Source: a virus. From it: DNA of 64,000 nt. The stretch's first letter is position 1, and the number at the start of each line of letters is the position of its first letter. A model generated the notes under the pieces. The model did no database searches. It saw only the letters and a program-made list of their open reading frames with translations, and was not told where the DNA came from. The stretch lies in IMG/VR virus record IMGVR_UViG_3300032236_000747, positions 1 to 64,000 of that record; one strand, 5' to 3'. Below are positions 5,159 through 11,008 of this stretch, piece by piece. The position numbers were made by a program, and so were the translations under genes.

Positions 5159-5578
5159 ATGAATAAGATTAAAAAAGCAATGTGGATGGCTTTGGGATTT
5201 TTATGTTTAGGCATAGCCTACATTGGTGTTGTAACGCCCGGTATTCCTTGGTCGACTCCCACAGTAGGAGCAGCGTATTGTTTTGCCAAAGGCAGCGAAC
5301 GCTGGCACAACTGGATTATGAATCATAAACTGTTTGGACCTTTCCTAAGAGGTTGGGCAGAGAAACGTGTATTCCCTATGTATGGTAAATGGGCTATGGT
5401 AGCAACCATGGATTGTAGTTTAATCATACTTTGGTTTACAACATATAACTGGAAACTAGTGGCCGGTGTAGGACTGGGAATGTTATTATGTGCTGTATGG
5501 GCTTTGCGCTATCCTAGCACAGAAGAAGAATATAATAGGCGCAAAGAAGCCGGCGAAAAGATTGGATGGTTTAAATGA
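5159..5578 (+). CDS. DUF454 (YbaN-like) inner-membrane protein
   Basis: 139 aa. Matches the YbaN/DUF454 pattern: an N-terminal hydrophobic helix (about 8-27), then TPGIPWSTPTVGAAYCFAKG (family: PVLPTTPF.LLAA.CFA..S.), WH.WI..H..FGP.LR.W, and two further hydrophobic segments (about 80-95, 98-115). A small integral membrane family of unknown function, unusual for a phage. AAAGG site upstream of ATG; overlaps the next gene by ATGA, forming a two-gene unit after the tRNA array. Confidence 0.85.
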   Translation: MNKIKKAMWMALGFLCLGIAYIGVVTPGIPWSTPTVGAAYCFAKGSERWHNWIMNHKLFGPFLRGWAEKRVFPMYGKWAMVATMDCSLIILWFTTYNWKLVAGVGLGMLLCAVWALRYPSTEEEYNRRKEAGEKIGWFK

Positions 5579-5934
5579 GATTAGAAGGCTTTGTAGAAAA
5601 AGGTTGGGGCTCAGAATTAATCTGGGCAACTAATGACAAGTATGCAGGCAAGTTGTTAAAATTTAATACTGGTGCAAAGTTCAGTATGCACTTTCATGCT
5701 GAGAAAGATGAAACTTGGTATGTGCTGAGTGGAAAATTTATTGTTCGATGGATTGATACCATTAATGCAGAGGTATATGAAAAAGAACTCAATGAAGGTA
5801 GTGTATGGCACAATCCTCCTTTATTACCACATCAAGTTGTATGTATTGAAGAAGGTACACTAATCGAAGTTAGCACACCAGATTCAGTTGAAGACAACTA
5901 TCGTGTAGCCAAAGGCGACTCTCAGAAAAGTTAA
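5575..5934 (+). CDS. single-domain cupin
   Basis: 119 aa. Contains the first cupin motif G33-x5-H39-x-H41-x4-E46-x6-G, and a second-strand region NPPLLPHQV, so the metal site looks intact. The fold resembles the cupin part of mannose-6-phosphate isomerase type II or small sugar-binding cupins. Substrate unknown. Starts within the DUF454 stop (ATGA). Its TAA overlaps the stop of the gene on the opposite strand. Confidence 0.8.
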   Translation: MRLEGFVEKGWGSELIWATNDKYAGKLLKFNTGAKFSMHFHAEKDETWYVLSGKFIVRWIDTINAEVYEKELNEGSVWHNPPLLPHQVVCIEEGTLIEVSTPDSVEDNYRVAKGDSQKS

Positions 5935-7071: not shown

Positions 7072-7525
7072 AAATGTAGCTGCTATAGATGTTTCGAGTG
7101 GTTTCCATCATGCCTGTGGTGAAAACTCTATGTTGATTAGTATTGCTGATACAGGCGGTTGGCGCCCAGAAGCAAAACACACATTCAAAGAACGTCATAA
7201 CTTCGAGTTTCTTGATATTGAAAAAGATGACTTTGCTCTAGACGAAGCAATGCGCTGTAGCGAAGCACAAGCCGCAGAACTTGTTCGTTTGTTGCAACAT
7301 GCTCTTGACAACCGTATGAACGTTGTAGTACATTGTACAGCAGGTTTGTGCCGCAGTGGAGCAGTAACCGAAGTTGGAGTTATGATGGGATTTGATGACA
7401 CCGAACGTTTCCGTAGCCCTAACTTACTGGTCAAGCATCGTATGATGAAGGCCTTGGGTTGGACCTACGATGAGAATGAAAAACCTAACATTGATGATTG
7501 GAGGAACTTTAAAAATGACTTTTAA
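7058..7525 (+). CDS. tyrosine/dual-specificity phosphatase-like protein
   Basis: 155 aa. Contains the cysteine phosphatase P loop HCTAGLCRS (C93, R99, S100), preceded by a helix and strand as in dual-specificity phosphatases. A general-acid Asp is likely among DIEKDD (53-58). Possible substrates are proteins, nucleotides or RNA 5' ends. Overlaps the SLOG gene by 14 bases. Confidence 0.8.
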   Translation: MPWIENVAAIDVSSGFHHACGENSMLISIADTGGWRPEAKHTFKERHNFEFLDIEKDDFALDEAMRCSEAQAAELVRLLQHALDNRMNVVVHCTAGLCRSGAVTEVGVMMGFDDTERFRSPNLLVKHRMMKALGWTYDENEKPNIDDWRNFKNDF

Positions 7526-7829
7526 GAAACTCAGCGAGGATGGTAAAATAGCTGTACTATATTCTCCTTCATTTGGCGCAGGATGGTTTACCTGGAATCA
7601 ATCATATCCAGAAATCATGTTTGACCCTAATATTGTAAAGTTTGTTGAAAAAGAAGAATGGGACAAGTGCAGGGCGTATGTAACACTGAAATATCCAGAT
7701 ATCTACGCCGGGGGTTTAAATGACTTAAAAGTCGAATGGATTCCCGAAGGAACATTGTTTAAAATACATGAATACGACGGCAATGAAAGTATTGAACTTA
7801 AAGAGTCAGATCAATGGTTTGTAGCATAA
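7515..7829 (+). CDS. hypothetical protein, 104 aa
   Basis: I chose the ATG at 7515, preceded by GGAGGAAC, over an earlier ATG deep inside the phosphatase gene. Soluble, with a C-terminal VEWIPEGTLFKIHEYDGNES segment that I associate with small conserved phage proteins of unknown function. Confidence 0.72.
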   Translation: MTFKKLSEDGKIAVLYSPSFGAGWFTWNQSYPEIMFDPNIVKFVEKEEWDKCRAYVTLKYPDIYAGGLNDLKVEWIPEGTLFKIHEYDGNESIELKESDQWFVA

Positions 7830-7838
7830 AGGTGTAAT

Positions 7839-8087
7839 ATGACTAAGGTAGTAGTAGAACATAAAGACAAGTTGGGTCGAGTATTAAATATCGGCGATTG
7901 TGTTGCCTATCCACAGAGTAATACTTTGTATGTTGGCACTATTAGAAAAACACATAACAAGATGATCACAGTCTCTCCAGTTGGACGAGACCATCGTTAC
8001 AATGGATCTAAAAAATATTCAAGTGACGTAGTTCTATTGGAAGGCCCTCAAGTAACATTATACTTGTTAAAATTAGAAACAAAATAA
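7839..8087 (+). CDS. hypothetical protein, 82 aa, small beta-barrel-like
   Basis: AAAGG-type site before the ATG. The pattern LGRVLNIGDCVAYPQ...LYVGTIRKTHNKMITVSPV looks like an SH3/KOW-like beta barrel, which would suit nucleic-acid binding. No exact family. Confidence 0.7.
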   Translation: MTKVVVEHKDKLGRVLNIGDCVAYPQSNTLYVGTIRKTHNKMITVSPVGRDHRYNGSKKYSSDVVLLEGPQVTLYLLKLETK

Positions 8088-8097
8088 AGGAAAGAAA

Positions 8098-8706
8098 ATG
8101 CCCGGAGTATTTTTAGTTAGTGACACGCACTTCGGACACATGGGTGTTTGTAAGTTTATGCGGTCTGATGGTGAAACAAAATTAAGGCCATGGGATAGTC
8201 CAGAAGAAATGGACGAAGCAATGGTCAAGGCTTGGAACGAACGTGTCAAGCCCAATGACAAGGTCTACCACTTAGGTGACGTTGTTATTAACCGCAAGGC
8301 TTTAAAGACATTGTCTCGCTTAAACGGCGACAAAGTTTTAATCAAAGGTAATCACGATATCTTTCGCTTAGAAGAATATACAGCTCACTTTCGTGATGTC
8401 CGTAGTTACCACGTAATGAACGGAATGATCTTAAGTCATATTCCTGTAAGCCCAGATTCGTTATACCGTTTTGGTACTAACATTCATGGTCATACTCACT
8501 CAAATCGTGTGAAGAAGATCAGAGGTGTTGATGTTAGAACTGGTGAACTCTTGTACAGCACTGAAAACGATGTTCGTTATCATTGTGTATGCGTAGAGCA
8601 AACCCCAAACTTTGCTCCAATCTTATTCGAAGACGTTATCAAACGCATTGAAGCAGAAGGCGGTACAGTTGGATTTAAGAACGGCGAGTTTAAAGGCGCT
8701 TCTTAA
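8098..8706 (+). CDS. calcineurin-like metallophosphoesterase
   Basis: 202 aa. All family motifs are present in order: SDTHFGH (D9, H11), YHLGDVVIN, KGNHD, LSHIP and HGHTHSN, giving a complete two-metal site. Related phage enzymes act on phosphodiesters or nucleotides; the substrate is not clear. Followed by a convergent gene whose stop overlaps its own. Confidence 0.9.
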   Translation: MPGVFLVSDTHFGHMGVCKFMRSDGETKLRPWDSPEEMDEAMVKAWNERVKPNDKVYHLGDVVINRKALKTLSRLNGDKVLIKGNHDIFRLEEYTAHFRDVRSYHVMNGMILSHIPVSPDSLYRFGTNIHGHTHSNRVKKIRGVDVRTGELLYSTENDVRYHCVCVEQTPNFAPILFEDVIKRIEAEGGTVGFKNGEFKGAS

Positions 8707-9341
8707 AGATTTTGGAGAACAGGTGCTAGTTCAGCAGGTTGCTTATCTTTGATAACAACGGGCGTGTAATCATAGCTAGCCATCCATCCCCAACTTTCTT
8801 GTTTACGTAGATCGCTTAGATCAGCGCGGCGACGAACGGCCCAGGGTGAGGCTCCATTACTAATATGGAACCTTGCTACTGGGTCTTTTTTTGCGACTAA
8901 AAATTCTTGTATTTCTTCAATGCCCGGTTGCTTGTTAAACTTAGAACGCAGACTAGGTATCGGGCTCAAAGTTATAAACTTACCTAATGTTGGGAATCGA
9001 TTGCGTAGATCTTCAGCAGCACCGTAGATTAGTTCACGAACACCGCCCTTGACTGACTCGCTGTCCGGAAGGCGGAATACGCTGTAGAACACAGCATATA
9101 AAAATGGATCAGTTTGTTCTTTTTTATTCCAAAGACTTTTTGCTGTCATTGGTGCACTAGCAGTTAGCGCAACTTGTAGTATCGCCACAGGCCTATCGTT
9201 ATCTGTCATTACATAGATAATGCGATCATTACCAAATCTACGAACTAGGTTTTTCTTTTCGTCGATTGGATGTACCGGATCATGCTTTATCAGCTCAGCC
9301 CAGTGCGTATTAAATTCTGGCTGTAAATTGCTGATGATCAT
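8703..9341 (-). CDS. malonyl-CoA decarboxylase-like (GNAT-fold) protein
   Basis: 212 aa. The C-terminal two thirds match the catalytic domain of malonyl-CoA decarboxylase: AVFYSVF, RFPTLGKFITLSPIPS, DPVARFHISNGA (with the family's conserved His) and the closing RADLSDLRKQESWGWM..Y.Y. The N-terminal helical domain of the roughly 450-aa enzyme is absent. It could decarboxylate malonyl-CoA or have become an acyltransferase. Reverse strand; AAGGAA site; exact late promoter TATAAATA about 30 bases upstream. Start chosen at the only well-placed ATG. Confidence 0.72.
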   Translation of the reverse strand: MIISNLQPEFNTHWAELIKHDPVHPIDEKKNLVRRFGNDRIIYVMTDNDRPVAILQVALTASAPMTAKSLWNKKEQTDPFLYAVFYSVFRLPDSESVKGGVRELIYGAAEDLRNRFPTLGKFITLSPIPSLRSKFNKQPGIEEIQEFLVAKKDPVARFHISNGASPWAVRRRADLSDLRKQESWGWMASYDYTPVVIKDKQPAELAPVLQNL

Positions 9342-9362
9342 GGTATTTCCTTACATTTTGTA

Positions 9363-9421: not shown

Positions 9422-9524
9422 GTGGCTGTAAGCGAACGGCAGAGCTCCGAGATACTTGTATCCCGGGAATGGTTGCAGACATAGTCGCCGCACCTTGTAG
9501 GTTCAAGTCCTACCAGCCACACCA
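9422..9524 (+). ncRNA. tRNA-like RNA lacking an anticodon loop
   Basis: 103 bases. Acceptor stem GTGGCTG/CAGCCAC (7 bp perfect), D-arm-like AGC/GCT with GG in the loop, T arm GTAGG-TTCAAGT-CCTAC, discriminator A and encoded CCA 9522-9524. Where the anticodon arm should be there is a 9-bp hairpin (CCGAGATAC/GTATCCCGG, one mismatch) with essentially no loop, then a second irregular hairpin. I cannot assign an anticodon. Either a tRNA mimic or a tRNA with a very unusual fold; Thr and Arg tRNAs follow. Confidence 0.6.
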
Positions 9525-9721: not shown

Positions 9722-11008
9722 ATGGATTACAAAGTAGCAGATATTACATTAGCCTCTTGGGGCAGAAAAGAAATCGCAATCGCAGAACACGAAATGCCGG
9801 GTCTTATGGCTATTCGTCGTGAGTACGCAGGACAGAAGCCACTGGCTGGCGCACGTATTACTGGCAGTTTACACATGACTATTCAAACTGCTGTGCTAAT
9901 CGAAACTCTAGTTGAACTAGGTGCTAGTGTTCGCTGGGCAAGCTGCAATATTTTCTCCACACAAGATCAAGCTGCTGCTGCACTAGCCGATGTAGGTATT
10001 CCTGTGTTTGCTTGGAAAGGCGAAACAGAAGAAGAATACTGGTGGTGTTTAGAGCAAACAGTCGAAGGTCCAGAGGGATGGAAACCTAATATGTTGCTAG
10101 ATGACGGTCACGATCTAACTGGATATATCCACGACAATCGTCCAGATTTGCTAGAAGGCATTATTGGTGTTACTGAAGAAACAACTACTGGCATTCATAA
10201 GCTAGTAGAACGCATTGCCAATGGCACATTAAAAATGCCAGCAATCAATGTAAACGATTCAGTAACTAAGAGCAAGTTTGATAACTTATACGGGTGCCGC
10301 GAGTCGCTAGTTGATGCTGTTAAGCGTGCCACTGACGTAATGATCGCAGGTAAAGTCGCTGTAGTTGCTGGATATGGAGATGTAGGTAAAGGTTCTGCAC
10401 AGGCTCTTAGAGCGTTATCCGCACAAGTTTGGGTAACTGAAGCTGATCCTATCTGCGCCCTACAAGCAGCCATGGAAGGTTATCGTGTTGTTACCATGGA
10501 ATATGCCGCAGACAAATGCGACATCTTTGTAACTGCTACAGGCAACGTTGATGTTATTACTCGAGCACACATGGATGTAATGAAGGACAATGCTATTGTA
10601 TGTAACATTGGACACTTTGATACAGAGATCGACGTAGCAAGTTTGAGCGATTGTACCTGGGACGAAATCAAACCACAAGTTGATCACGTTATTTTCCCTA
10701 ACGGAAAACGCATTATCTTGTTGGCCAAAGGACGTCTAGTTAACTTGGGCTGCGGAACAGGACATCCTAGCTATGTTATGAGCAACAGTTTTACCAATCA
10801 AGTAATGGCTCAAATCGAACTCTACAATAACCCAAGCAAGTATGATGCAGGTGTACTATACTTGTTGCCCAAACATTTAGACGAAAAAGTTGCTCGTTTG
10901 CATCTAGGACAGATTGGCGCACAGCTAACTACCCTAAGCGAAAAACAAGCAGGTTATATTGGTGTTAAAGTTGAAGGCCCATTTAAACCAGATACATACA
11001 GATATTAA
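9722..11008 (+). CDS. ahcY: S-adenosylhomocysteine hydrolase (adenosylhomocysteinase)
   Basis: 428 aa, normal length for the family. Motifs: [13 protein letters not shown] (51-63), DDGHDLT (127-133), [17 protein letters not shown] (180-196), the NAD-binding GYGDVGKG (217-224), GHFDTEID, and the conserved C-terminal KPDTYRY. It splits S-adenosylhomocysteine into adenosine and homocysteine, relieving product inhibition of methyltransferases. Complete and apparently active. Directly upstream of dCMP deaminase (one-base overlap). A phage copy would keep SAM-dependent methylation running during infection; that purpose is inference. Confidence 0.95.

Follow-up and report, generated by a model that had tools for sequence, protein, structure and literature searches.

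Locus and neighbouring genes

The window analysed here is a stretch of 64,000 nucleotides that belongs to a 354,680-base virus record, in which the stretch at 226.5-229.9 kb encodes a T4-type large terminase. Among annotated phages, this terminase is closest to that of PA5oct-like Pseudomonas jumbo phages (56% identity), and the record is that of a jumbo phage. Shine-Dalgarno-like sites are found 5' of 32 of the 50 genes in the window compared with a background of 9%, a pattern that lends no support to a host among the Bacteroidota.

A preliminary description of the window had proposed a malonyl-CoA decarboxylase (MCD)-like protein that lacks the helical domain of the known enzymes. We found an open reading frame at exactly 8703-9341 on the minus strand, encoding 212 amino acids (212 codons and a stop), and both motifs named in that description, TLSPIPS and DPVARFHISNGA, lie in it. 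The gene and its features are as follows:

8098..8706, plus strand: calcineurin-like phosphoesterase, convergent with the MCD gene and adjoining it in most contigs of group A (defined below)
8703..9341, minus strand: compact malonyl-CoA decarboxylase gene, as predicted by Pfam, PDB sequence matches and a structure model
8766..8768, minus strand: codon of Tyr192 (human Tyr456, which holds the catalytic His; alignment)
8805..8807, minus strand: codon of Arg179, invariant in compact forms and Gly in two-domain MCDs (alignment)
8850..8885, minus strand: DPVARFHISNGA motif, residues 153-164, with catalytic His159 (human His423; sequence and alignment)
8955..8972, minus strand: TLSPIP motif, residues 124-129, with catalytic Ser126 (human Ser329; sequence and alignment)
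9087..9089, minus strand: codon of Phe85 (human Phe288, proposed CO2 pocket; alignment)
9348..9352, minus strand: Shine-Dalgarno-like AAGGA, 5 bases 5' of the MCD ATG (sequence)

From stop to stop, the open frame comprises only 215 codons, and the DNA upstream holds tRNA genes of a tRNA cluster; the loss of the helical domain is therefore real rather than the result of a misassigned start codon. A scan for promoters and terminators around the gene gave no more than shuffled sequences do, and no regulation is claimed.

Other genes of the window also stood out. An S-adenosylhomocysteine hydrolase gene (9722-11008, plus strand) adjoins the MCD gene; a similar gene is present in only three annotated phage records, and the gene order of a related contig (L013) suggests that it was inserted between the MCD gene and a deaminase gene. 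At 9422-9524 on the plus strand, ARAGORN missed a tRNA-like gene that ends in CCA; its Rfam score of 29.6 bits is barely above threshold and its anticodon arm, a GATA-CTTG-TATC hairpin, looks odd. At 5159-5934 on the plus strand, a DUF454 protein precedes a cupin whose match is to the phage family called cysteine dioxygenase; both are well conserved across related contigs.

A single-domain relative of malonyl-CoA decarboxylase

In a Pfam profile search, the window protein matched MCD (PF05292) at 80.4 bits (E=2.2e-22, cut-off 23.2). This was the only family above its cut-off and no acetyltransferase family was matched; the preliminary description had set against its own reading an outcome of ordinary GNATs only, and the search returned MCD instead. 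PHROGs contained no family for the protein and NCBIfam no usable match. In the PDB, no sequences other than those of solved MCDs matched below E=0.5; the MCD matches had E values from 1e-12 to 4e-8.

An AlphaFold2 model of the window protein, built from 18 viral sequences, had a mean pLDDT of 88.4 and a pTM of 0.85, with low confidence at residues 200-212. The first 17 rows of a Foldseek search with this model were all MCD chains. Upon re-alignment, MCDs again came first with Z 17.4-20.1 (20.1 over 198 residues for human malonyl-CoA decarboxylase), followed by Z 15.7-16.8 for the GNAT-like decarboxylases SxtA, CurA and GphF and Z <=13.0 for the ordinary acetyltransferases listed. Together with the terminase in the record, the profile and structure matches bear out the proposal of an MCD-like catalytic domain in a phage.

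The model aligns to the human enzyme from human residue 196 onward, indicating that the whole N-terminal helical domain described for MCDs (PMC3701320) is absent, as had been proposed from the sequence. Compared with two-domain enzymes, the segment from TLSPIP to DPVARFH is also shorter, by approximately 15-35 residues. As the helical domain was looked for and is absent, we did not file the protein as a two-domain MCD (MLYCD / MatA, EC 4.1.1.9, PF05292; structures 4f0x, 2ygw, 4ksa, 4ksf and 4ks9). The sequence and the model instead point to a compact variant with the PF05292 catalytic domain alone, which probably works like the two-domain enzyme; the protein is real and would be a new single-domain form of a known enzyme.

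Conserved and compact-only residues

We compared residues across 66 proteins (27 viral, 15 compact bacterial and 24 two-domain, the last comprising 23 bacterial proteins and one from a virus contig), with equivalences taken from the human numbering in PMC3701320 and from sequence alignment to solved MCDs. The active-site Ser, His and Tyr are invariant in all 66, and the active-site Phe has one exception. Asp174, an MCD-type Asp, is likewise invariant at the position of CurA Arg404, which was located by its residue distance to the catalytic His (PMC3701320). In ordinary GNATs, the position of the MCD His is taken by a Tyr that serves as general acid (PMC3701320); this Tyr is absent here, with His at the position of His159 in every one of the 66 proteins. 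The phage protein thus shares with two-domain MCDs the fold and sequence of the catalytic domain, the Ser-His dyad, the supporting Tyr and Phe and the MCD-type Asp.

It differs from them in being phage-borne, in lacking the N-terminal helical domain and in having fewer residues from the Ser motif to the His motif: the distance from Pro129 to Asp153 is nearly fixed at 22-24 residues in compact proteins, compared with 38-59 in two-domain proteins. Asp21-Pro22, Phe89 and Arg179 are particular to the compact forms, so their substrate could differ.

CurA, GphF and SxtA (2ree, 2ref, 6mfc and 7uci) provide a second comparison. Each contains a single GNAT-fold domain of around 200 residues, like the window protein, and theirs decarboxylates (CurA, PMC3701320; GphF and SxtA, according to PDB titles), so a lone domain of this fold can suffice. 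Similarity to the CurA-type loading domain extends to Z 15.7-16.2 (2ref/2ree) and a His-Ser/Thr dyad. However, these domains sit in larger synthases and are only about 13% identical over the structure, and CurA Arg404, which is linked to S-acyl transfer, is replaced by Asp174. The window protein is also a standalone open reading frame rather than a polyketide synthase module, with no PP-binding domain found in the record.

The fold is common to N-acetyltransferases, the compact forms have their own invariant Arg179 and tRNA genes adjoin the MCD gene, all of which could fit a GNAT-fold acyltransferase that has abandoned decarboxylation and modifies a host protein, a tRNA or a metabolite. We consider this improbable given the invariant decarboxylase dyad, the absence of an acetyltransferase profile match, the fall in Z from 20 to 13 for ordinary GNATs and the malonate-like gene context in Bacteroidota described below. 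The proximity to tRNA genes means little, as these are scattered across the first 10 kb.

Recurrence in uncultured viruses

Scans of IMG/VR identified the compact form in 38 contigs, some of which encode identical proteins (27 distinct ones entered the tree). The effective scans used a DNA pattern for DPVARFH and an 18-row alignment; a scan of viral_contigs with unsuited stretches of a single protein found nothing, and one with a two-row alignment found only one full-length MCD. The MCD protein had no tblastn match in around 50,000 annotated phage records, and open-access papers yielded no description of an MCD in a phage, a weak absence. The gene, whose function the preliminary description called uncommon, is missing from annotated phage records but is recurrent in uncultured viruses. 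Among plasmids, the matches listed carry malonyl-CoA decarboxylase annotations, and the one examined has two domains.

The viral genes occupy at least three types of neighbourhood. In group A, which includes the window, the MCD gene is antisense to its neighbours and usually adjoins a phosphoesterase. In group B, it is co-directional; the genes ahead of it encode a phosphoesterase and an AAA_33 protein, joined in some contigs by an RNA-ligase-like open reading frame, and genes of the AhpC, GDSL and CMD families follow. Some contigs of group C have ClpP-like genes and a radical-SAM gene next to the MCD gene. The RNA-ligase-like and ClpP-like assignments were made by eye, not by profile. Between the window and contig L006, the phosphoesterases are 82% identical compared with 37% for the MCDs, which would reflect either fast MCD evolution or the recruitment of different MCDs at one site. 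The viral compact MCDs are under purifying selection, with dN/dS of 0.09-0.26 within group A; many of the dS values, however, lie above 1.5 and thus close to saturation.

One virus contig (L004) carries a full-length, two-domain MCD (7452-8705, plus strand) beside terminase-like and portal-like open reading frames, both named by eye. It groups with Roseobacter genes in the tree, suggesting a prophage edge or a separate capture.

Bacterial viruses can carry lipid genes, such as those for carrier proteins and desaturases. We looked for lipid genes in MCD-carrying viruses alone and claim no enrichment. Contig L120 encodes a desaturase and an acyl carrier protein around 7-8 kb from its compact MCD gene. 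On contig L126 (record G004), five fatty-acid desaturase matches lie in a row at 14.3-18.3 kb, and an acyl carrier protein gene is also present. An AMP-binding acyl-CoA ligase, an SDR and a beta-keto acid cleavage enzyme lie in a row on contig L134 (13084-16246, minus strand), around 4.5-7.6 kb from the compact MCD gene, and look like a small acyl-CoA pathway. By profile, the record of the window contains no carrier protein (PP-binding), acyl-CoA ligase or desaturase.

Compact relatives in Bacteroidota

A scan of cellular genomes (one per species, 84,980 species) found 272 related stretches. We kept the best 80, of which the best 17 (L032-L048) encode compact proteins. Sixteen of these contigs are labelled Bacteroidota and one Rhizobium; the latter label is doubtful, as the protein concerned hardly differs from one labelled Chitinophaga in the same assembly series. 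These proteins, an unnamed family, resemble the viral ones in length, in the missing domain and in the compact-only residues, and share one clade with them. Unlike the viral genes, they are chromosomal (the surroundings look ordinary in the six contigs listed), and their proteins do not keep the Asp-Pro of DPVARFH. The compact form was present in 1 of 296 sampled genomes, the centre genome itself, and seems rare in Bacteroidota.

A further difference from the viral forms is the gene order in Bacteroidota, where the genes for a putative transporter and a malonyl-CoA-synthase-like protein precede the compact gene. Sixteen of the 17 contigs (all but L042) encode a homologous MFS transporter, and 15 (all but L042 and L039) a malonyl-CoA-synthase homologue; L039 is a 3.3-kb contig that ends around 1 kb upstream, and L042 is a true exception. 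The NCBIfam malonyl-CoA synthase model was the best match, below its curated cut-off, for the synthase-like proteins of L032 and L048, and the second best for that of L035. No other PF05292 gene was found in the five genomes with a compact MCD that were checked. Malonate use by MatC, MatB and MatA combines transport, activation and decarboxylation in this way, and the compact form therefore probably fills the complete MCD role in Bacteroidota. This gene context is the strongest functional hint for the compact MCD and makes malonyl-CoA decarboxylation the best reading of its predicted activity.

Phylogeny and origin

In an unrooted tree of 42 compact and 24 two-domain proteins, the two kinds were separated with 100/100 support and the bacterial compact genes formed one clade (98/92). 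The viral label requires two changes on this tree, and a single viral clade is neither supported nor rejected (AU p of 0.07). The viral compact proteins are the more diverse, and the Bacteroidota clade sits among them. This topology might reflect a virus-centred family, with different members taken up by several phage lineages at a single site beside a phosphoesterase to steer the malonyl-CoA/acetyl-CoA balance and with the Bacteroidota copies derived from viruses, but we regard such a history as doubtful.

The record is derived from a metagenome and L004 carries a full-length, host-type gene, which raises the question of whether the compact gene is a decaying bacterial fragment, or bacterial DNA joined to a phage by assembly. 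Either is scarcely credible, as the gene recurs in 38 virus contigs with recurring phage neighbours, is under purifying selection, lies outside the two-domain host genes in the tree and shares its record with a T4-type terminase.

Predicted function in the infected cell

The protein is likely to be a malonyl-thioester decarboxylase, whether the thioester is to CoA or to acyl carrier protein (ACP). With less certainty, we favour a single-domain malonyl-CoA decarboxylase that the phage encodes as an auxiliary metabolic gene, with CoA thioesters as the main substrate. The GNAT-fold domain would bind malonyl-CoA, and Ser126 and His159 would polarise the thioester carbonyl; CO2 would leave and the enolate would then be protonated to give acetyl-CoA. 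The likely results in the infected cell are that malonyl-CoA is drained, slowing host fatty-acid elongation, and that acetyl-CoA is freed for energy metabolism. We infer catalysis, the preference for CoA thioesters and the benefit to the phage; the late timing put forward in the preliminary description is likewise an inference, to which no feature of the sequence points. Weighing against the favoured reading are the loss of the helical domain, the compact-only residues, the lack of carrier protein, acyl-CoA ligase and desaturase profile matches in the record and the sub-threshold scores of the synthase-like proteins.

Instead of malonyl-CoA, the enzyme could act on malonyl-ACP or a different malonyl-type thioester, for example methylmalonyl-CoA. 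CurA-type domains, which share the fold, act in carrier-protein systems (PMC3701320), and some viruses with a compact MCD have their own acyl carrier protein, in one case around 8 kb away. Decarboxylation of malonyl-ACP would yield acetyl-ACP, which can prime fatty-acid synthesis, so that lipid synthesis would be promoted, not blocked; acetyl-ACP made by Mad proteins does promote it (PMC8666670). We nevertheless think this substrate unlikely, as no carrier protein was found in 14 of the 16 viral records tested, including that of the window, and the operons in Bacteroidota suggest that free malonate is activated to its CoA ester. MadA and MadB would share malonyl-thioester decarboxylation with the protein predicted here, and MadA also has a GNAT domain, but Mad activity resides in a hot dog domain and the GNAT domain of MadA is inactive there (PMC8666670). 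The window protein had no profile match to the hot dog domain (PF09500), and its model has a GNAT fold.

Collectively, our results give a name to a previously unnamed gene of many uncultured jumbo phages. In known MCDs, the helical domain makes oligomers, and the compact form allows the need for this domain in catalysis to be tested directly. Malonyl-CoA is the building block of fatty acids and the committed metabolite of their synthesis. If the preferred reading is true, a phage enzyme that destroys malonyl-CoA could switch the infected cell from membrane building to energy supply.
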